Below, in pieces: positions 40,042 through 50,833 of a stretch of DNA of 53,312 nt (within the stretch, counting starts at the first letter, position 1; the number at the start of each line of letters is the position of its first letter). The notes beneath the pieces were generated by a model. That model saw nothing but the letters and a program-made list of their open reading frames with translations, was not told the origin of the DNA and did not search any database. The position numbers and the translations under genes are program-made. The stretch is from the NCBI GenBank assembly GCA_004292605.1, contig RDXK01000100.1, forward strand, positions 1 through 53,312, given 5' to 3'. The DNA comes from Bacteroidota bacterium. GTDB taxonomy: Bacteria; Bacteroidota; Bacteroidia; Chitinophagales; Chitinophagaceae.

Positions 40042-41112
40042 CTATTTCAAAAGCGCCTGCAACTTAGCTGAAAGCTCCTCGCCACGAAGGTTTTTGGCGA
40101 TAATTTTTCCTGAAGGGTCAATCAATAAATTCTGTGGTATGCTGCTTATTTTATAAATGCGGCCTACTTCATTGCTCCAACCCTTTAAATCGCTTACCTG
40201 TGCCCAAGCCAATTGATCGTCCTTTACAGCTTTTAACCATTTATCTTTTTCTTGATCAAAGGATACACCCAAAATGGTGAAATTTTTGTTCTTGTAAGTC
40301 TCATAGGCCTTTACCACATTCGGATTTTCACGGCGACAAGGGCCACACCAACTAGCCCAAAAATCTACCAAAACATATTTGCCACGGAAACTACTTAACG
40401 TAATATCCTTGCCATTGGCATCTTTCTGTGAAAACTCTATGGCTTGTGTACCTACGGCACCTATACTAGCCTCGTCTATTTTTTGCTTAATCTGCTTACC
40501 GTAACTACTACTTTGTACAGAAGTACTAAGCATGTTAAACCGATTAGTTAACAATGAAATATCATCGTTCATTTGCAGCGTCGTAAGTATAGTTAACGCA
40601 CCAATGATGCTGTTTTTATGGGTAGCTACAAACTCATTGGTAAGCTTTTCAGCCTGTGTTTGCAACGCCGTGTATTGACTCCTTAATTCGTTGGTTACGC
40701 CCTGTTCTTGAGCCTTTTTACTAACTTCATTTAGCTGTTGAAAAACACCGTTGAATGATTGCTGAAAATCTACAAAATCTTGGTGTAGTTGGGAACCCTT
40801 CACCTGTAGTGTTCCAGCTGCATCGCCTTCTACGGAAAGCGTACTGTTATCTAAAAATATAAATGCTTTTGTTTGCTTGCCCAGGGCTAACTGGTACAAA
40901 CCTGGTTCCACTACGGCACCTTTTAGTACAAACTTGCCGTCGTTTGCTACAGCTTTTGCAGCTGGCTCCGTTGGCTTATCGGCTGAGGTGATTGACACTT
41001 CCGTACCATTGGTTAAACCCGTAACGGTACCATTTATTTGAAAACCTGCCGCTTGAGCTTGCGCCAATAATACAGCCCCTAAAAAACCTACTACGCCTAC
41101 TAATTTTTTCAT
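40042..41112 (-). CDS. TlpA-like thiol-disulfide protein with N-terminal DUF4369 domain
   Basis: A 356-residue protein. The signal peptide ends near LLAQAQA. The DUF4369-like domain is about residues 25-120 (FQINGTVTGLTNGTEVSI, FVLKGAVVEPGLYQL). A helical middle follows, then a thioredoxin fold from about 222 (DITLSSFRGKYVLVDFWASW). The redox motif is C256-G-P-C259. It is periplasmic and probably reduces or shuffles disulfides. Its start overlaps the hisIE stop by 4 bases (ATGA), so it is the last gene of the trp-his operon. The reason for this link is unknown. Confidence 0.92.
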   Translation of the reverse strand: MKKLVGVVGFLGAVLLAQAQAAGFQINGTVTGLTNGTEVSITSADKPTEPAAKAVANDGKFVLKGAVVEPGLYQLALGKQTKAFIFLDNSTLSVEGDAAGTLQVKGSQLHQDFVDFQQSFNGVFQQLNEVSKKAQEQGVTNELRSQYTALQTQAEKLTNEFVATHKNSIIGALTILTTLQMNDDISLLTNRFNMLSTSVQSSSYGKQIKQKIDEASIGAVGTQAIEFSQKDANGKDITLSSFRGKYVLVDFWASWCGPCRRENPNVVKAYETYKNKNFTILGVSFDQEKDKWLKAVKDDQLAWAQVSDLKGWSNEVGRIYKISSIPQNLLIDPSGKIIAKNLRGEELSAKLQALLK

Positions 41113-41699
41113 TTTGTATGTCGTTTTTGTAAAATATCTACTACTGCCTGCAAATTAGTTTCTTTTGCTCGCAAAAGAATCAAGTAATGAAAAAGCAAAT
41201 CTGCAGCTTCGTTCAAAAATAAGTGTTCATTGTTGTCTTTCGCCTCAATTACCACTTCTACAGCTTCTTCACCTACTTTTTGGGCAATTTTATTCAAACC
41301 TTTAACAAATAAACTGCTTACATAGCTTTCGCTAGCATCTGCTTGCTTTCGTTGTTCAATAATACTTTCCAATTTTGTAAGAAACCCAATACCTGTATTG
41401 CTTTCGGCAAAACAAGTATCCGTTCCCGTATGGCAAACTGGCCCCACAGGAATGGCTTTTACCAATAGTGTATCGGCATCGCAGTCTTCTTGCATGGAAA
41501 CAAATTCCAAATAGTTACCACTCTCCTCGCCTTTGGTCCACAACCTATTTTTCGATCTACTAAAAAAAGTAACTTTCTGTAGTTGCCTAGTAGCATCTAC
41601 CGATTCCTGATTCATAAAACCCAGCATCAATACCTTTTGGGTAATAGCATCCTGTACTATTGCCGGTATTAATCCATCACTGTATTTACTAAAATTCAT
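41109..41699 (-). CDS. hisIE: bifunctional phosphoribosyl-AMP cyclohydrolase / phosphoribosyl-ATP pyrophosphatase
   Basis: A 196-residue protein from the ATG at 41699 (MNFSKYSDG); a GTG two codons earlier is less likely. The N-terminal HisI domain (about 1-105) has VLMLGFMN, SRSKNRLWTKGEESGN and the metal site CDADTLLV...VCHTGTDTCF. The C-terminal HisE domain (about 108-196) has KVGEEAVEVVIEAKDN. Together they catalyse steps 2 and 3 of histidine synthesis. It is three bases beyond hisF in the same operon and overlaps tlpA by 4 bases. Confidence 0.97.
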   Translation of the reverse strand: MNFSKYSDGLIPAIVQDAITQKVLMLGFMNQESVDATRQLQKVTFFSRSKNRLWTKGEESGNYLEFVSMQEDCDADTLLVKAIPVGPVCHTGTDTCFAESNTGIGFLTKLESIIEQRKQADASESYVSSLFVKGLNKIAQKVGEEAVEVVIEAKDNNEHLFLNEAADLLFHYLILLRAKETNLQAVVDILQKRHTK

Positions 41700-41708
41700 G
41701 TACACTAT

Positions 41709-42467
41709 TTAAATACGAACTAAAACGTTTTTACTGGCCAAATATTGCTTTAAAGCAGGAATGGAAATACTACCAAAGTGAAATACACTAGCTGCTAGGG
41801 CCGCCGTAGCTTGTGTTTGTACAAATACATCTTCAAAATGCTGCATGGAACCGCCACCACCGCTAGCAATGACGGGAATATTTACGGCGGCTGCCACCTG
41901 CCCGGTAATATCTAAAGAAAAACCCGCCTTGGTACCATCGCTATTCATAGAAGTAAGTAAAATTTCGCCAGCACCTAATTGCTGTGCTTGCAGTGCCCAT
42001 TGCACACAAAGCACCCCTGTAGAAACGGTACCGCCCTTTGTGTAAACATACCAATTTCCGTCATCGGCTAATTTTGTATCTATAGCTACTACCACACATT
42101 GGCTACCAAATTCCGTGGCAAGTTCGGTAATAAGTTCTGGGCGATAAAATGCCGATGAATTCACAGAAATTTTATCCGCCCCGGCATAAATCAATCGTCT
42201 AGCATCTTCGACACTGCTAATACCACCACCCACTGTGAAGGGAATATTAATTTGCCGAGCCACATCGGTAACCAAACCCACCAGTGTTTTACGTTCCTCT
42301 AGTGTGGCGGTAATGTCTAAAAAAACCAGTTCATCTGCACCTTGCTCAGCATACAAAGCCGCTAGCTCCACCGGGTTACCAGCATCAACAATATTTTCAA
42401 AATTTACGCCTTTTACGGTTCGTCCATTTTTAATATCAAGGCAGGGTACAATGCGTTTAGTTAACAT
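41709..42467 (-). CDS. hisF: imidazole glycerol phosphate synthase, cyclase subunit
   Basis: A 252-residue (beta/alpha)8 barrel. It starts [19 protein letters not shown] with catalytic Asp11; the second catalytic Asp is in [13 protein letters not shown] (about 130). It has the phosphate-binding GGGISS and ASGGGGS segments. With HisH it forms imidazole glycerol phosphate and AICAR. It overlaps hisA by 11 bases (42457-42467), evidence of tight co-translation within the operon. Confidence 0.98.
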
Positions 42468-43194
42468 AGCTATTTTTTTCTATCCAAGTAGTTAATTCAG
42501 GCAAACGAATGGTTTGTTCATAAATGGCTTTGCCTACTATGGCAGCTTGGCAACCAACAGTTTTCAATTCATCTAAGTGCTGTAAAGTAGCCACACCGCC
42601 ACTAGCCACCAACTGTACACCGGGCACAGCATCTAGAATAGTTTGGTACAATGCTAATCCCGGACCCGCTAGCTTACCATCCTTTGAAATATCTGTACAA
42701 AAAATATGTTGAATACCTTTTTCTACATAGTGTTGTATAAAATCTATAGCCTGCCAACTGCTAGCTTCTAACCAACCTGCTGTGGCAATAAAATTATCTT
42801 TTACATCGGCTCCTAAAAAGAAATAATCACTTCCAAACTGTTCCAACCATTGTAAAAAAATGGCAGGCTTTTTTGCTGCTACGCTTCCTACCGTAATGTA
42901 CCTAGCGCCCGACGAAAGTACCGAACGGCAATGATCTTCGGTAGAAACACCTCCTCCAAAATCTATTACTAAACGGGTTTTACTCGCAATACTCTCTAAT
43001 ACTTTCCAATTGATAATTTGGCCCTGTTTGGCACCATCTAAATCTACCAAATGTAATCGCTGTATACCAGCATCTTCCAATTGCTTTGCTACCTCTAGTG
43101 GATGCTCGTTGTAAATTTTTTTCTCGGCGTAATTACCTTCTGTTAAGCGTACACATTTACCATCTATAATATCTATTGCTGGAATAATTGTCAT
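42457..43194 (-). CDS. hisA: ProFAR isomerase (phosphoribosylformimino-5-aminoimidazole carboxamide ribotide isomerase)
   Basis: A 245-residue barrel. It starts [19 protein letters not shown] with catalytic Asp8. It has [12 protein letters not shown] and [19 protein letters not shown] (second Asp region). It performs the Amadori rearrangement in step 4 of histidine synthesis. It overlaps hisH by one base and hisF by 11. Related in fold to HisF and TrpF, all encoded in this operon. Confidence 0.97.
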
Positions 43195-43787
43195 TAGGCC
43201 GACTTTATAAAGTTTTCAATAATGGTGGCACCTACTGCCGCACTTTTTTCCGGGTGAAACTGTACGCCGTAAAAGTTATTTTTTTGTAAGGCTGCACTAA
43301 ATGGCACTATGTAATTAGCTGTTGCTACCGTAGCATTACAGGCCTTTGCGTAATAGCTATGTACAAAGTAAACATATGCATTAGCAGGTATATTTTGAAA
43401 TAAAATACTATTGCTCATACTGATGTTATTCCAGCCCATGTGCGGAACTTTTTCACCTCCATCCAAAGGAAATTTTATCACTTCCGTATCAAAAATCCCA
43501 AGGCACTTAGTGTTGTTTTCTTCTGACGATTGGCACAACAACTGCATTCCCAAACAAACGCCCAACACTGGCTGTGTAAGGGTAGGAATTAATTGATGCA
43601 AACCATGCTGCTGTAAATACCGCATAGCCGTACTAGCTTCACCCACACCTGGGAAAATTACTTTATCGGCTGCTAAAATAGTTTCGGCATGGTTACTTAA
43701 TTCCGCTGTAATACCCAAACGCTCCAAGGCAAACAACACACTCTGCGTATTACCAGCATTGTATTGAAGCACTACTACTTTACTCAT
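43194..43787 (-). CDS. hisH: imidazole glycerol phosphate synthase, glutamine amidotransferase subunit
   Basis: A 197-residue protein from the ATG at 43787 (MSKVVVLQYNAGN); an in-frame start at 43802 adds five residues and a longer overlap. The nucleophile is Cys78 (GVCLGMQLL), and the His/Glu pair is in GVQFHPEKSA near the C-terminus. It supplies ammonia to HisF. Its start overlaps the 3' end of trpA by 8 bases, so the trp and his halves of the operon are physically continuous, with no promoter space between them. Confidence 0.97.
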   Translation of the reverse strand: MSKVVVLQYNAGNTQSVLFALERLGITAELSNHAETILAADKVIFPGVGEASTAMRYLQQHGLHQLIPTLTQPVLGVCLGMQLLCQSSEENNTKCLGIFDTEVIKFPLDGGEKVPHMGWNNISMSNSILFQNIPANAYVYFVHSYYAKACNATVATANYIVPFSAALQKNNFYGVQFHPEKSAAVGATIIENFIKSA

Positions 43788-44568
43788 GATAGCCCTCCGC
43801 AATTTGCTGAATAAAATTCGTTGTTACGCTCACTACATCGGTAGTTTGGGCTAGCTCCTTTATAAACGCAGTACCGACAATGCCGCCATCGGCAATTTCA
43901 CAAACCTTGTGTAAAGCCTTGCCCGTGGCAATTCCAAAACCTACCATTAATTTATTTTTCACAACCAAGGTTTTTGCTTGCAGCAAATAAGCTTCAATAG
44001 CTTCAGCAGAATTGTTACCCGCCTTACCTGTAATGGTATTACTACTTACAGCATACACAAAACCAGTAGCCAACGTATCTATCAACTTTATACGCTCTAC
44101 CGTGGTTTGAGGCGTAATAAGAAATACAATTTTTAACCCATACTTTTCAAAAATGGGTTGGTAGCTAGCGGCATATAATTCCGGTGGTAAATCGGGCAAA
44201 ATACAGCCTTTTATACCTACCGACTGTGCTAGTGTACAAAACCTGTCCACACCAAACTGCATGATAGGATTGATATAACCCATTAAATACAAGTGCGATT
44301 GTAAGGGTGGCAAATTTTTTAATTGTTGGAACAATAATTCTAGCGTCATTCCATTTTCAATAGCCTGTAAATTGCTCTGCTGAATTACCGGCCCATCTGC
44401 CACAGGATCGCTATAGGGCATGCCAATTTCTATAATGGGTACACCAGCGGCATCTAAGGATTGTATAATATCCACGGTACTATCTACCACCGGAAATCCG
44501 GCGGTGAAATACATGGCTAAATCTTTCCCATGCATAGCGGCAGATAAGGAAGAACTGTTATTTTTCAT
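43780..44568 (-). CDS. trpA: tryptophan synthase alpha subunit
   Basis: A 262-residue TIM barrel. The catalytic Glu47 and Asp58 lie in VPIIEIGMPYSDPVADGP. It also has the loop FVYAVSSNTITGKAG and the substrate phosphate region MVGFGIATGK. It cleaves indole-3-glycerol phosphate to indole and glyceraldehyde 3-phosphate; the indole is channelled to TrpB. Its start overlaps the preceding GNAT gene by 11 bases, and hisH starts within its last 8 bases. Confidence 0.98.
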   Translation of the reverse strand: MKNNSSSLSAAMHGKDLAMYFTAGFPVVDSTVDIIQSLDAAGVPIIEIGMPYSDPVADGPVIQQSNLQAIENGMTLELLFQQLKNLPPLQSHLYLMGYINPIMQFGVDRFCTLAQSVGIKGCILPDLPPELYAASYQPIFEKYGLKIVFLITPQTTVERIKLIDTLATGFVYAVSSNTITGKAGNNSAEAIEAYLLQAKTLVVKNKLMVGFGIATGKALHKVCEIADGGIVGTAFIKELAQTTDVVSVTTNFIQQIAEGYHE

Positions 44569-45028
44569 GTAAGGAATATCTCATTTTTATATTAGCTCTT
44601 TTGTATAAAGAGGCATCCAAAACCTCCTCTATAAAACCTACTTTTCGGTATAAGTGAATAGCAGGTGCCAACTTGGTATTGGAATACAAATAAATAAATG
44701 GCCATTGCTGTTGGCCTGCAAATTCGATGGCAAATGCTAATAATACTTTACCTACACCACCACCACGAATAGCGGGTAGAACCGCCATTTTTGTAAGCTC
44801 CATAAAACCCTCTGCATCTTTCTTAAACGCAAATGTTCCCACCACCTCATTATCTAGCTCGGCCATGAATATAAAACCACCGGGCTCTATAATTTGTTCT
44901 ATTGGGTTCGATAACACAAACTCATCTATTGGCTCTACCTCAAAATAGGTTTCCAGCCACTCAATATTGAGCTGCTTAAATATGGCAGCATCTTTTGGTT
45001 CAAAGGAACGAATGGTAATCATACTCAT
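44558..45028 (-). CDS. GNAT-family acetyltransferase inserted between trpB and trpA
   Basis: A 156-residue protein starting [21 protein letters not shown]. Acetyl-CoA-binding motif A is MAVLPAIRGGGVGKVLLAFA (about residues 77-96, with RGGGVG as the pyrophosphate loop). The C-terminal part is NTKLAPAIHLYRKVGFIEE. The substrate is unknown. It overlaps trpB by one base and trpA by 11, so it is fully embedded in the operon and should be made with the Trp enzymes. Whether it modifies a Trp or indole compound or is a passenger is open. Confidence 0.9.
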   Translation of the reverse strand: MSMITIRSFEPKDAAIFKQLNIEWLETYFEVEPIDEFVLSNPIEQIIEPGGFIFMAELDNEVVGTFAFKKDAEGFMELTKMAVLPAIRGGGVGKVLLAFAIEFAGQQQWPFIYLYSNTKLAPAIHLYRKVGFIEEVLDASLYKRANIKMRYSLHEK

Positions 45029-46215
45029 TATTTCAAAAAGGGCATATACGTTGCTAAATCTTTATCGCCGCGGCCACTAAAACAAACTACCACCACATCG
45101 CTAGGCTTCCAAGTAAGCTTGGATAGTATGGCCAACGCATGAGCGGTTTCCAATGCCGGAATAATACCTTCGGTTTTGGTAGTTGCAAACGCAGCTTCTA
45201 TAGCTTCCACATCGGTAACATTATAAAAACTAGCCCTTTCTGTTTTGTATAAATAGGCATGCAGCGGCCCTATGCCCGGATAATCGAGCCCTGCAGAAAT
45301 ACTGTGTGGTTCTATCACTTGTCCGTCCGCTGTTTGCATTACCAAACTTTTGCTACCATGCAATACGCCAACGGTACCTAACTGTGTGGTGGCGGCCGAC
45401 TTACCAGAATGTACGCCTTCGCCGCCAGCCTCCACTGAAATTAATTGCACACTAGGCTGCTCAATAAAATTATAAAAAGCACCCGCAGCATTGCTACCAC
45501 CCCCTACGCAGGCTATTACATGGGTGGGCAAAGCAGTGCCCGTTTGGGTCAATAACTGTTGTTCTATTTCTTCACCAATTATTTTTTGAAATTTTGTTAC
45601 TAAATCTGGATAAGGGTGTGGCCCCACCACGCTACCAATAATATAATGGGTATTTTCTGCATTGGTTATCCAATCCCTTATGGCTTCGTTGGTAGCATCT
45701 TTCAGGGTTTTACTTCCACTAGTGGCAGGTACTACGGTAGCACCTAACATACGCATACGAGCAACGTTTGGGGCTTGGCGTTGAATATCTTTTTCACCCA
45801 TGTACACTATACATTCAAGCCCTCGCAAGGCACACGCTGTGGCCGTAGCTACACCATGCTGGCCAGCACCTGTTTCTGCAATAATTCGGGTTTTACCCAA
45901 ACGCTCTGCCAATAGAATTTGGCCGAGAGCATTGTTAATTTTATGGGCACCAGTATGGCATAAATCTTCCCGTTTAAAATAAATATTTGTATTTAGTAGG
46001 CGGCTAGTATTGCTAGCAAAATACAAAGGGGTGGGCCTACCCACAAAATGCCTAAGTAAATCGTTTAACTCCTTTTGGAAAGATGGCTCTGCAATTATTT
46101 CTACATATTGCTGCTGTAACTGGGTTACATTAGCATACAACATTTCCGGAACAAAGGCTCCGCCAAACTCACCATAAAATCCATCTAACGATGGTTTACT
46201 TTTCACCACACTCAT
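45028..46215 (-). CDS. trpB: tryptophan synthase beta subunit
   Basis: A 395-residue protein of the TrpB1 type. The PLP Lys is Lys92 in [11 protein letters not shown]; the PLP phosphate loop is [10 protein letters not shown]. It has the [11 protein letters not shown] segment, the TrpB1 start [15 protein letters not shown] and the C-terminal [11 protein letters not shown]. It joins indole and serine to give tryptophan. It follows trpF by 4 bases and overlaps the GNAT gene by one. Confidence 0.98.
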
Positions 46216-46219
46216 AGTT

Positions 46220-46870
46220 CTATTGCTTTACACTTTTAATAAAATTGCTTACCAATTCTATATTCTTAATACCGGGTTCTATTTCAAACTTACTATTTAC
46301 ATCTACGGCAAATAAATCCTTCGCCACAATATCCTGTTTAAATATTTGCAGGGCCTCCGTATCCGTAGGACTAATGCCCCCACTCAAAAAGTAGGGCTTA
46401 CCTATTTGCAACCCTTTCAGTCGACTCCAGTTAAATTTTCTACCCGTTCCGCCATAGGCTCCTTCTCCTTCTGCGGTAATGCCGCTATCGAATAAAAACA
46501 AATCGCTATCGGCATAAAAATCTTTAATCTTCCACTCTACATGGTCGAACTCAGTGATGCGAAATGCTTTAATTACTTGGATATAGTTGCTAATTTTTTC
46601 GCATTGGTAGGGCGTTTCATTGCCATGTAGCTGCACCATATCTAGCCCAAACAAATCTATCTGCGTCATCACTTCATCGTAAGCAGCATTTACAAAAACG
46701 CCTACTTTATAGCTTTTTAGCTTAGCTTTTTTTACATCTACTCCTTGTAATGTTTTGGGAGCAAAACGAGGTGATTTGTGATAAAAAATCATCCCTACAA
46801 AATCGGCTCCTGCTTCATCAATAGCATGTAATTGCTGTAAACTTGTAACACCACAAACTTTAACTCTCAT
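46220..46870 (-). CDS. trpF: phosphoribosylanthranilate isomerase
   Basis: A 216-residue barrel. It starts [21 protein letters not shown]; the catalytic Cys is Cys6 of KVCGVTS (here V replaces the common I in KICGI). The second acid is in [25 protein letters not shown] (pieces FLFDSG and GGTGRKFNW). It has the product-site segment [10 protein letters not shown]. It catalyses the third step of Trp synthesis. It overlaps trpC by 11 bases. Confidence 0.97.
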
Positions 46871-47654
46871 AAATGCCCTGTTTTAATTGTTCTACAAATT
46901 GGGCAAATGCAATCGCCGGAATGGGTTGCTTCATAAAATGCTCTCCCATTAAAAAACCAACACAACCGTTTCTGTATAAATGTACAACAGTTTCGATAGA
47001 CTGTAAACCACTTTCTGCAATCAGTGGTATGTGGGTGGGTAACAATGGCTTTACGCTTAATACATGCAGCGGGTTAACTTCAAAGGTTTGTAAGTTTCTA
47101 TTATTTACGCCAATAGTGTCCACCGTTTCTACTACTTTATCTAATTCGGATGGGTGATGAAGTTCTAGCAACACCTGCATCCCCAGTTCATGAGCTAATG
47201 CGGTAAATGCTTCTATTTCCAGTTTTGAAAGTATAGCGGCTATTAGTAATATGATAGATGCACCAGCGGCTTTCGCTTCATGAATTTGATAAGCATCAAT
47301 CATAAAATCTTTACGAAGTATAGGCACTTGTATCTCTGCCATTTGCCTTACGTGCTGTAAATTTCCGTGAAAGCTAGGCTCATCAGTAAGTATAGAAACC
47401 GCCGAAGCATGAAGTGCGTAAGCCTCTACTGTTTCCTGTAAAGATGCATGGGCATTAATGATACCTTTTGATGGCGAAGCCCGTTTAAACTCCGCAATAA
47501 TGGGCACCGTACTTTTCTGCAAAGATTGGGTTAGCTGCAATGGTTGACGATGGTAGTAGGCAGAGTCCTTCAATTGTTCCAAACTTACCTGCTGCTTGGC
47601 AGCGGCAACTTCCTGCTGCTTGTACGCTACAATTTTATCAAGAATAGTGGTCAT
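46860..47654 (-). CDS. trpC: indole-3-glycerol phosphate synthase
   Basis: A 264-residue protein. It starts with an N-terminal helical segment (ILDKIVAYKQQEVAAAK). Catalytic motifs are IIAEFKRASPSKG (Lys and Glu), VPILRKDFMID (Lys), VGVNNRNLQTF, and IAESGLQS near the end. It closes the indole ring from the anthranilate-derived intermediate. It is separate from TrpF here, not fused as in enterobacteria. It abuts trpD with no spacer. Confidence 0.98.
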   Translation of the reverse strand: MTTILDKIVAYKQQEVAAAKQQVSLEQLKDSAYYHRQPLQLTQSLQKSTVPIIAEFKRASPSKGIINAHASLQETVEAYALHASAVSILTDEPSFHGNLQHVRQMAEIQVPILRKDFMIDAYQIHEAKAAGASIILLIAAILSKLEIEAFTALAHELGMQVLLELHHPSELDKVVETVDTIGVNNRNLQTFEVNPLHVLSVKPLLPTHIPLIAESGLQSIETVVHLYRNGCVGFLMGEHFMKQPIPAIAFAQFVEQLKQGIYES

Positions 47655-48653
47655 TTATATAGTTTGTAAATTCATTAATTGGGTAAATTTTTCCAGCGCT
47701 GCTTTCGATTCTAAACTTTCTACAGCTTGCTGGTATGCTTGCTGATAAGTACTACTTAACCCCGCCCCGTGAATAGCGGCAGCAGCATTGGCAAGCACTA
47801 CAGCATTTTGTGCCCAGGTACCTTGGCCTTGTAGAATTTGAAGAAACAAAGCAGCTGCATCATCCACAGAGCTGCCTACCGATAAATCTTCGCCAAATAC
47901 TTCTCGACCACCTAAATAAACACTGTCGTAAATATTCTCGCCTGCAGGAGTTATGAACTTTGTATCGGCCGTAAGACTTATTTCATCATAGCCATCTAAG
48001 CCATGAATAATGGTATAATTTTCTTCCGTTTGCTGCAATAAATAATTGTACAAACGAGCAATTTCTAGCGTTCCCGTACCAATGAGTTGATAGCTTGGGC
48101 GTGCCGGATTTACCAATGGACCGAGCATATTAAAGAACGTACGAACGGCTAAATTTTTTCGCATAGGAGCCACCCTTTTTAATGCCGGATGAAATAGTGG
48201 AGCATGTAAAAAACAAATACCTATTTTATCTAATTCGTTTTGAAGTTTTGCCTCGTTGTTACTAAACCGGTAGCCTAATTGCTCCAATACATTGCTGCTA
48301 CCACTAACGCTGGATGCACTATAGTTTCCATGTTTAATAATGGTACCACCGGCACCTGCCACTACAAAACATGCCAATGTAGAGATGTTGAAAGTATTTT
48401 TTCCATCGCCACCCGTGCCCACAATATCAATGCTATTAGTAGCTACCAATTTACAAGGGATAGCTAACTGCAGTAATGCATTTCTAAAACCCTGCAGTTC
48501 CGGCAGCGTGATACTCCTCATTAGGTACACTGTAGTAAACGCCGTAACCTCATAATCAGAATATTTACCATTGGCAATTTCTAATAATATGTTTTCTGCT
48601 TCCGTGGCCGATAAAGATTGGTGCCTAAATAATTTGGCTAAAATATTTGTCAT
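47655..48653 (-). CDS. trpD: anthranilate phosphoribosyltransferase
   Basis: A 332-residue protein. It has the PRPP-binding glycine-rich motif GTGGDGKNTFNIS, then KHGNYSASSVSGSSNVLEQLG (pieces KHGNYSASS and SGSSNVLEQLG), RTFFNMLGPLVNPA and VIHGLDGYDEISL-type segment (IIHGLDGYDEISLT). It transfers a phosphoribosyl group to anthranilate. It is separate from TrpG here. The gap to trpG is one base and to trpC zero. Confidence 0.98.
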   Translation of the reverse strand: MTNILAKLFRHQSLSATEAENILLEIANGKYSDYEVTAFTTVYLMRSITLPELQGFRNALLQLAIPCKLVATNSIDIVGTGGDGKNTFNISTLACFVVAGAGGTIIKHGNYSASSVSGSSNVLEQLGYRFSNNEAKLQNELDKIGICFLHAPLFHPALKRVAPMRKNLAVRTFFNMLGPLVNPARPSYQLIGTGTLEIARLYNYLLQQTEENYTIIHGLDGYDEISLTADTKFITPAGENIYDSVYLGGREVFGEDLSVGSSVDDAAALFLQILQGQGTWAQNAVVLANAAAAIHGAGLSSTYQQAYQQAVESLESKAALEKFTQLMNLQTI

Positions 48654-48654
48654 G

Positions 48655-49242
48655 CTATTGAATAGATAAAATCCAATTTTTTAATATGGTTTCTCCTTGT
48701 GGCGTTAAAATACTTTCGGGGTGAAATTGTACGCCAGTAATATGGTATTGTTGGTGCTGTAAAGCCATACAATTACCCCATTCATCTACGGCAGTAATAT
48801 GTAAACAACTCGGAAAATTTTCGTTGGCTACTACCCAGCTATGGTAACGGCCCACTTCAATACTATTGGGCAAGTTGTTAAAAATACCTGCCACATCTTT
48901 TTTCGAATCAATTTGAATAGGCGTGGCAATACCGTGAAATACCTGGGGTAAATTTAACAATGTACCGCCAAAATATTCTCCAATAGCTTGGTGCCCCAAA
49001 CATACACCCAGTATGGGTTTTGATGTATGTAATTGGTCAATCACTGGCAACGTTATACCACTTTCTGAAGGTAAGCCCGGGCCGGGTGAAATTACAATAG
49101 CATCAAAGGCTTTTAGCTGCTCTACGGTTACTTCATCGTTTCTAAAAACAGTGACTGCTGGTTCCACAATTTTTTCAAGATAGTGCACCAAATTATAAGT
49201 AAAGGAATCGTAATTATCTATTACTGCTATACGTAGGTTCAT
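48655..49242 (-). CDS. trpG: anthranilate synthase glutamine amidotransferase subunit
   Basis: A 195-residue class I GATase. The nucleophile is Cys81 (GVCLGHQAIGE), with His174 and Glu176 in VQFHPESILTPQG. It starts IAVIDNYDSFTYNLVHYLE and contains ISPGPGLPSESG. It delivers ammonia to TrpE. It may also serve p-aminobenzoate synthase; no pabB is seen here. It overlaps trpE by one base. Confidence 0.97.
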   Translation of the reverse strand: MNLRIAVIDNYDSFTYNLVHYLEKIVEPAVTVFRNDEVTVEQLKAFDAIVISPGPGLPSESGITLPVIDQLHTSKPILGVCLGHQAIGEYFGGTLLNLPQVFHGIATPIQIDSKKDVAGIFNNLPNSIEVGRYHSWVVANENFPSCLHITAVDEWGNCMALQHQQYHITGVQFHPESILTPQGETILKNWILSIQ

Positions 49243-50657
49243 TAGGAAATTTTTTCTGCGTTTTCAATAGCTTTTTTCAAAGCTGCCAATTTATTATTTA
49301 CCTCTTCCAATTCACTTTGCGGCGAACTATTTACTACTACACCAGCACCCGCTTGGTAATACAGCGTATTGTTTTTACTAAAAAAGCTACGAATTAATAT
49401 GGCATGGTTACAGCTACCATTACAGCCCCAAAAACCAATGGCACCGCCATAAGTACCCCTTGCAGTAGGTTCTAGTTCCGTTATAAGTTGCATAGCTTTT
49501 ACCTTGGGTGCACCAGATAAAGTACCTGCGGGAAATGTGGCTTTCATGGCACTCCAATAAGCATGTGTGGGCAGCAAATTCGTTTGCACCTCGCTTACCA
49601 TATGTATTACATGAGAAAAAGTTTGAATTTCTTTTAACTTGGTTACCCGTGTTTGTGTGCCCACCCGGCTTAAATCGTTTCTAGCTAAATCTACCAGCAT
49701 GGTATGTTCTGCGTTTTCTTTGGCATTGGCTAGTAAAAGATTGGCGGCTTCGGTATCTACCGCATCATCACCCGTGCGTTTTACCGTACCAGCTATTGGG
49801 TGCATGATGGCTACATTATTTTGGACGATCAACTGACTTTCAGGCGACGATCCCATGATACGATAATTACCATAATCAAAGTAGAACAAATATGGTGACG
49901 GATTTACATTGCGTAAGCTGCGATAAACATTAAAATCATCGCCCTTAAATCGCTGCTGAAAACGCCTACTTACCACTATTTGAAACACATTACCTAGTTG
50001 GCAATTTTTGATGCCTTCCTTCACCATAGTCAGGTATTCATCGTTGCTACAATTACTGGTTTCCGTTCCTTGTAAAGCAAATGGGTACGATGGCACATCT
50101 GTACTAGTAATTAGCTGTTCTACATAATCCATCTGCGACGGTATACCCGTAAAATGATTTTCCAGCAAATACATTTCATTTTTAAAATGATGTATAGCTA
50201 TTACATACTGAAACATACGGTACCGCAACTGAGGAATTTGAAGGCCATCTTCTTGCGGCCGCACCGGCACATTAGGTTCAAACATAGTGATGGCATCGTA
50301 GGCGGTGTAGCCATAAAAACCTTGGGCAAAAGCCTCTTCAGTACTGCCTTGTGTGGGCTGAAATGCTTGAAAAAAACTGGTTAATTGCTCCATGCATTCC
50401 TTACCATTGGGCAGGTTTAGCTTTTTAGCCTCTTGGTTGGGGTACTTCCATTCCACTTGTGTATTTACCAGTTCTATACCGGCTACTGCATTTACACAAA
50501 TAAAGGAATAGGCCTTATTACTAGCGTTAAAATCGGCACTTTCTAGCAAAAAGCTATCTCTAAACTTGTCGCGTATACGCAGGTAAATACCTACAGGCGT
50601 ACACAAATCGGCCAGGAGCTTTTTGGATGTGGTAGAAAAAACAATTTTTTTACTCAT
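49242..50657 (-). CDS. trpE: anthranilate synthase component I
   Basis: A 471-residue chorismate-utilising enzyme. The Trp feedback site LLES (37-40, in FRDSFLLESADF) is intact, so the enzyme should be inhibited by tryptophan in addition to control of its mRNA. The catalytic part has VFQIVVSRRFQQRF, IMGSSPESQLIV, MHPIAGTVKRTG, DLARNDLSRVG and TFPAGTLSGAPKVKAMQLI. It makes anthranilate from chorismate with TrpG. It is the first structural gene of the operon. Its ATG lies 13 bases after the leader terminator's U-run, so transcription must pass the attenuator to reach it. Confidence 0.98.
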   Translation of the reverse strand: MSKKIVFSTTSKKLLADLCTPVGIYLRIRDKFRDSFLLESADFNASNKAYSFICVNAVAGIELVNTQVEWKYPNQEAKKLNLPNGKECMEQLTSFFQAFQPTQGSTEEAFAQGFYGYTAYDAITMFEPNVPVRPQEDGLQIPQLRYRMFQYVIAIHHFKNEMYLLENHFTGIPSQMDYVEQLITSTDVPSYPFALQGTETSNCSNDEYLTMVKEGIKNCQLGNVFQIVVSRRFQQRFKGDDFNVYRSLRNVNPSPYLFYFDYGNYRIMGSSPESQLIVQNNVAIMHPIAGTVKRTGDDAVDTEAANLLLANAKENAEHTMLVDLARNDLSRVGTQTRVTKLKEIQTFSHVIHMVSEVQTNLLPTHAYWSAMKATFPAGTLSGAPKVKAMQLITELEPTARGTYGGAIGFWGCNGSCNHAILIRSFFSKNNTLYYQAGAGVVVNSSPQSELEEVNNKLAALKKAIENAEKIS

Positions 50658-50669
50658 AAATTATATCAT

Positions 50670-50700
50670 AAAAAAACCCCAATCATTTGAATGACTGGGG
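50670..50700 (-). terminator. attenuator terminator (regions 3:4) of the trp-his operon
   Basis: On the minus strand CCCCAGTCAT (50700-50691) and ATGATTGGGG (50686-50677) form a 10-bp stem with one G.U pair and a TCAA loop. A T-run follows directly (50676-50670). It is an intrinsic terminator inside the leader, ahead of trpE. Its 5' arm is shared with the antiterminator. Confidence 0.88.
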
Positions 50701-50745
50701 CTAGAAAACGTTTATACGTATATAGCGGTATACACCAATCATTCA
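50688..50745 (-). promoter_or_regulatory. antiterminator pairing (regions 2:3) of the trp-his leader
   Basis: Region 2, UGAAUGAUUGG (50745-50735), can pair with region 3, CCAGUCAUUCA (50698-50688): 11 bp with one G.U. Region 3 includes the 5' arm of the terminator, so the two structures exclude each other. The leader peptide's stop codon (50741-50739) lies inside region 2, so a ribosome finishing the leader would cover region 2 and favour termination. A weaker region 1:2 pairing is possible between AUCAU of the His codons (50761-50757) and AUGAU in region 2 (50742-50738). Confidence 0.8.
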
Positions 50746-50795
50746 CCAGAGCGAAGATGATGCCACCACCAATATGTTTTTTGAATTGTTTTCAT
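50739..50795 (-). CDS. trp-his operon leader peptide (Trp-Trp-Trp-His-His)
   Basis: An 18-codon frame, ATG at 50795-50793 and TGA at 50741-50739, encoding MKTIQKTYWWWHHLRSGE. Codons 9-11 are TGG TGG TGG (50771-50763) and codons 12-13 are CAT CAT (50762-50757). Five consecutive codons of the two rare amino acids made by the enzymes downstream are very unlikely by chance. The frame is placed correctly relative to the antiterminator and terminator. The peptide itself is probably only a sensor: scarcity of charged tRNA-Trp or tRNA-His should stall the ribosome at codons 9-13, leave region 2 free and allow transcription into trpE. No Shine-Dalgarno is seen. The function is inferred. Confidence 0.88.
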   Translation of the reverse strand: MKTIQKTYWWWHHLRSGE

Positions 50796-50802
50796 TGCAA
50801 AG

Positions 50803-50833
50803 CAAATATGGAAATAAAAATTTAACGACGCAA
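50803..50833 (-). promoter_or_regulatory. candidate promoter of the trp-his operon
   Basis: On the minus strand TTG (50833-50831), a 20-base spacer and CATATTTG (50810-50803), a 7/8 match to TAnnTTTG. The expected start point would be only a few bases before the leader ATG, giving a nearly leaderless leader peptide. Read-through from the amylase gene upstream is also possible. Confidence 0.45.

Follow-up and report, generated by a model that had tools for sequence, protein, structure and literature searches.

A putative leader-peptide attenuator with tandem tryptophan and histidine codons ahead of a trp-his operon in Chitinophagaceae

The trp-his operon and its leader frame

The window, by which we mean the whole 53,312-nucleotide stretch of DNA analysed here, belongs to a draft genome of 331 contigs from the family Chitinophagaceae and carries on its minus strand a cluster of tryptophan and histidine biosynthesis genes which, after a short leader frame, follow in the order trpEGDCFBA-hisHAFIE. 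Comparison with NCBIfam placed trpG (48655..49242), trpD (47655..48653), trpB (45028..46215), trpA (43780..44568), hisH (43194..43787), hisF (41709..42467) and hisIE (41109..41705) above the curated cut-offs, and for trpE (49242..50657), trpC (46860..47654), trpF (46220..46870) and hisA (42457..43194) the expected family was the best match at a score below the equivalog cut-off. A GNAT-like acetyltransferase gene with weak NCBIfam matches only (44558..45028, likewise on the minus strand) is found between trpB and trpA. The original prediction of an operon with the Trp genes and five His activities thus holds, with the amendment that HisI and HisE are encoded by one bifunctional fusion gene. 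The start of hisH adjoins the end of trpA, and there is consequently no room for a separate leader at this junction.

The leader frame (50739..50795, minus strand) extends from an ATG at 50795-50793 to a TGA stop at 50741-50739, 81 nt before the trpE start at 50657, and its ORF translation, kept in Chitinophagaceae, is MKTIQKTYWWWHHLRSGE. Its regulatory codons, W9-H13, are three TGG codons (50763..50771) followed by two CAT codons (50757..50762), just as had been read from the window alone, and they specify amino acids made by the downstream operon, as is the case in classical attenuators. A frame with a run of Trp codons is present before trpE in 118 of 119 Chitinophagaceae loci (all but L173) and, outside the family, in 18 of 20 loci of the class (it is absent in L302 and L312), in accordance with the predicted conservation of the frame and of its tandem Trp codons in relatives, and the run comprises two to four codons in every leader located. 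Since the frame recurs at the same site in all these loci and since the leader region folds much more stably than shuffled sequences (z = -4.0), it is not a chance reading frame. It is presumably translated. The usual Chitinophagaceae leader reads WWWHTNSxRGL, and WWW with a single His is the common form across the family, the His pair being found in the window genome only.

Some relatives deviate from this picture. In a divergent group (L201-L205) the leader reads WWLSRWQ and has its third Trp codon further on. The sole genome of the same genus that was compared (G001, 80% complete) gave no match for trpE, trpF, hisF or hisG, so that either the genome is incomplete or the organism is an auxotroph for Trp and His alike. 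In Chryseobacterium and other Weeksellaceae (L219-L292) TrpE is about 56% identical to that of the window, which is near the values seen within Chitinophagaceae, and in the leaders, which are not linked to his genes, Leu, His, Pro or Gln comes after WWW; it is possible that the trp operon has been transferred horizontally.

The leader RNA and its relation to known attenuators

The leader RNA of the window can form mutually exclusive helices. Hairpin 1:2, the anti-antiterminator (50723..50771, minus strand, -20.5 kcal/mol), holds the regulatory codons in its 5' arm, and the antiterminator segment 2, TGAATGATTGG (50735..50745), which overlaps this hairpin, is perfectly complementary over 11 bp to segment 3, CCAGTCATTCA (50688..50698), with a duplex energy of -15.0 kcal/mol. 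Folding shows segment 3 to be common to the antiterminator and to the intrinsic terminator (50670..50702, -17.3 kcal/mol), a 3:4 hairpin followed by T7, of which it forms the 5' arm. The terminator is preferred at equilibrium by the full-length leader RNA, so that the decision would have to be kinetic, as in other attenuators. When a ribosome was placed at W9, W10, W11, H12 or H13 and the RNA downstream of it was folded to the end of segment 3, the predicted fold was the 2:3 antiterminator at -18.2 kcal/mol; with the ribosome at L14 this helix was down to -12.1 kcal/mol, and with the ribosome at the stop codon it was absent. The predicted folds thus combine an intrinsic terminator before trpE with a mutually exclusive antiterminator that is favoured by stalling at the regulatory codons, as in classical attenuators.

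These structures are widespread among the relatives. An equivalent intrinsic terminator was detected by an automatic scan in 125 of 137 leaders, and a consensus fold of 125 leaders, in which 89% of the pairs are canonical, contains both hairpins and shows many compensatory pairs in the terminator. The antiterminator duplex is stronger on average than in shuffled sequences (median z -1.7), and the RG or SG near the end of the peptide reflects the antiterminator segment, whose sequence TCGGGG is complementary to CCCCGA in the terminator. All three segments (2, 3 and 4) have been exchanged in the window, TGAATGATTGG standing in place of the usual GTCGGGG, and yet they are mutually complementary.

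Promoters of Bacteroidota follow a -33/-7 type consensus. A candidate promoter resembling it (50803..50833, minus strand) consists of TTG at 50833-50831, a 20-nt spacer and the box CATATTTG at 50810-50803, with 7 nt between it and the ATG of the leader. Given this match, the transcript would start a few bases before the ATG and the mRNA would be nearly leaderless. In 99 of 125 leaders a -7-like box is found close to the start of the leader, with a 7-nt gap in 48 and with TTG 17-23 nt further upstream in 89, and for the many relatives having such a box about 7 nt before the ATG (L093-L211, L293-L311) almost no 5' UTR is to be expected.

The leader is similar to the trp attenuator of E. coli (Rfam Trp_leader, RF00513) in having tandem Trp codons and alternative 1:2, 2:3 and 3:4 helices, but the E. 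coli attenuator senses Trp only; RF00513 did not match the window leader up to an E value of 10 and gave a weak match among the relatives (32.0 bits in L067, gathering score 41). Likewise, the his attenuator of E. coli and Salmonella (hisL) has His codons in the leader that precedes the his genes, and leaders of this type are found before hisG in the window genome and in the family; hisL however has a run of His codons only, whereas the window leader belongs to a type in which Trp codons are followed by one or two His codons. The thr (Thr and Ile) and ilv (Ile, Val and Leu) operons have multi-amino-acid attenuators. As in these, a single leader here carries codons for two or more amino acids that its operon makes or is related to, WWWHH standing before both trp and his genes, although the amino acids of thr and ilv share pathway steps and Trp and His are independent products that operon fusion has brought together. 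Attenuation of thr and ilv is mentioned in PMC1183508.

Among Bacteroidota, Trp leaders have been described as the Bacteroid-trp leader RNA, Rfam RF01692 (Weinberg et al. 2010, PMC2864571). The window shares with this family its phylum, its position upstream of trp genes and a long hairpin whose 5' arm holds the tandem UGG codons (UGGUGGUGG) of a short frame, but in the consensus UGGUGGUGG is followed by UAC for Tyr (UGG UGG UGG UAC) and there is no His. The window scored 20.9 bits against RF01692, below its gathering score of 49, and a scan of the window with Rfam at gathering thresholds returned tRNA only. None of 197 genomes of the Chitinophagaceae contained RF01692 above the gathering score, although many matches below it are located directly ahead of trpE. 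The original prediction had named Proteobacteria, rather than Bacteroidota, as the group from which such attenuators are best known, and had been aware of no composite leader. With a Trp leader RNA of Bacteroidota already on record in RF01692, only the addition of His looks new. No composite Trp and His leader was found in the literature searched, most subscription journals lying outside the coverage of that search.

The His codon and linkage of the his genes

A locus is here called linked if hisH and hisA follow the trp genes on the same strand, and the trait scored is the codon directly after the Trp run. Across the family and the class this codon is His in 68 of 69 linked leaders, the remaining one being WWWQH, as against 18 of 43 unlinked ones. 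Within Chitinophagaceae, linked leaders have His in 63 cases and Gln in one (the WWWQH leader), whereas unlinked leaders have 17 His, nine Gln, five Leu and one Ser; in the class outside Chitinophagaceae, His is found in all five linked and in one of 11 unlinked leaders. These five linked clusters come from two families and read WWHAG, WWHTS and WWWHT (f58) and WWWHS and WWWHL (f36), and two unlinked relatives from f36 have WWWHG and WWWQQ. Counted by genus, His occurs in 42 of 43 linked and 12 of 20 unlinked cases (p = 2e-4). Among unlinked named leaders, which are mostly from Weeksellaceae, 13 of 63 have His after the Trp run, and together with the 18 of 43 above this means that His at this position is not diagnostic. 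In one genus with hisH alone in the trp cluster (L194, L195, L211) the codon is Gln. WWW and HH had been expected to co-vary with the presence of hisHAFIE downstream, which applies to the first His and does so robustly with respect to phylogeny, but the relatives have WWWH and the pair itself is particular to the window.

The gene order suggests why a His codon might be of use. In 28 linked genomes, by comparison of coordinates by eye, hisG precedes trpE by 4-9 kb in the same orientation, contig ends hiding the distal part in five of them, and hisB is no more than about 1 kb upstream in 20 linked loci. These positions point to the order hisGDCB - leader - trpEGDCFBA - hisHAFIE, that is, to a trp operon nested within a his operon, and a Trp-only attenuator in this place would cut off the distal his genes. 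In many unlinked genomes, by comparison, hisG and hisF share a contig away from the trp genes and are separated by 5-6 kb, which resembles an intact his operon. A separate His leader before hisH was considered and rejected, since none of the 69 linked clusters has a His-rich leader there (the gap between trpA and hisH has a median of 43 nt), and with no leader of their own hisHAFIE would be silenced by a Trp-only attenuator whenever Trp is plentiful. In the window genome the remaining half of the His pathway (hisG, D, C and B) is on another contig (C16), where the hisG leader is the poly-His peptide VNNQIHIHHHYHLLAW followed by a terminator, GGCTTACTTAGGTAAGCC with T6. With the his genes divided between contigs, the putative Trp and His attenuator is the only leader-type element seen before hisHAFIE in this genome. 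On C16 (L212:10903-17060) a gene judged by eye to resemble a secreted sugar dehydrogenase is found between hisC and hisB. His-rich short frames precede hisG in nearly all of 30 loci (e.g. MHIHHHHHFLPxG, L314-L342), which looks like a family-wide His attenuator, and this genome, like its family, thus appears to make use of attenuation by His.

A correlation of this kind might also be expected if WWWH and his linkage had been inherited together and both had been lost for unrelated reasons, and indeed other leader positions correlate with linkage, some of them even after tree correction, while the independent contrasts are few: independent pairs are nearly all concordant (about 3-5 versus 0) but too few for significance. 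In a correlated-evolution test on a FastTree tree of TrpE (one protein, midpoint-rooted), however, a model in which gain and loss of His depend on linkage was strongly favoured over an independent one (2dlnL 32.9, p 7e-8), the fitted rate of His loss being 2.65 in unlinked and 0.075 in linked lineages. The His position is well apart from the control positions of the leader, which gave 2dlnL values of 2 to 16 (at most 15.8), and His simulated under the independent model reached 12.3 at most in 300 runs. Furthermore, WW(W)H is found in two other families with trp-his clusters of their own. Phylogenetic inertia was controlled for by the test, the control positions and the simulations, and we regard an explanation by shared ancestry as very unlikely.

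Somewhat less improbable, though still unlikely, is that the attenuator senses Trp only and that the His codons are incidental, CAU being kept for pairing in hairpin 1:2. The codon after the Trp run almost always has C as its first base, so that it encodes His, Gln, Leu or Pro. In 56 of 61 linked leaders its wobble base is paired, A being the usual partner, and U there has an advantage of some 1-2 kcal/mol over the other three bases. RNA pairing is thus a real second constraint that explains part of the preference for CAU, and the many unlinked leaders retaining His are in agreement with a sensor of Trp alone. That most relatives have a single His, which may not suffice for sensing, we count against the sensing of two amino acids. 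Pairing is however independent of the downstream genes and the codon is not. CAC for His and CAG for Gln have about equal pairing costs, and yet they occur 11 versus 0 times in linked and 4 versus 6 times in unlinked leaders (p = 0.004, relatedness ignored). His also persists where the remaining peptide has been replaced: linked leaders that have otherwise diverged still carry WW(W)H (L160, L183, L190, L196, L199, L209), as in WWWHGVSF, WWHVSRAYAV, WWWHNISS, WWHSISFPG and GWWHGISD. Pairing alone is consequently part of the explanation but insufficient in view of the co-variation with linkage. That there is no transcription attenuator at all, the short frame being untranslated or the leader acting on trpE translation only, is most improbable, since terminator, antiterminator and anti-antiterminator are all present in the window and conserved, and since the 81 nt between leader stop and trpE are too far for simple translational coupling, although 12 of the 137 leaders lacked a terminator in the automatic scan.

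A putative two-input attenuator and its evolution

The leader probably constitutes a ribosome-mediated transcription attenuator of OR type that senses Trp or His. The frame, the mutually exclusive helices, their conservation and the co-variation of the His codon with linkage are evident from the sequences compared, and translation of the frame, stalling and read-through are inferred. Transcription would start just before the leader ATG. With both charged tRNAs plentiful, the ribosome would pass through WWWHH to the stop codon and cover segment 2, and the 3:4 terminator would form before trpE. If either Trp or His were short, the ribosome would stall at any of codons 9-13 and mask segment 1, whereupon segment 2 (50745-50735) could pair with segment 3 (50698-50688), the terminator would not be formed in time and trpEGDCFBA-hisHAFIE would be transcribed. 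The His codon would be maintained because of the distal his genes that this attenuator precedes: with a sensor of Trp alone they would be turned off in cells rich in Trp but poor in His, and a His codon within the stall window would remove this conflict. Compared with the common WWWH with its single His, the HH of the window is the strongest candidate for stalling at His.

It seems likely that in Bacteroidota, and there in more than one family, operon fusion has retuned the attenuator codon by codon. Where the trp operon came to lie within the his operon or was joined to it, the codon following the Trp run would have been kept or recruited as His, which would have made the attenuator an OR-gate; where the his genes left, this codon would have drifted to Gln, Leu and others. 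If true, the leader would gate one operon by two amino acids whose biosyntheses are separate and would be a ready two-input RNA switch. The leaders furthermore provide a natural experiment, the order of the genes predicting one regulatory codon in some 110 genomes, by which the manner in which cis-regulation follows operon rearrangement becomes directly testable.
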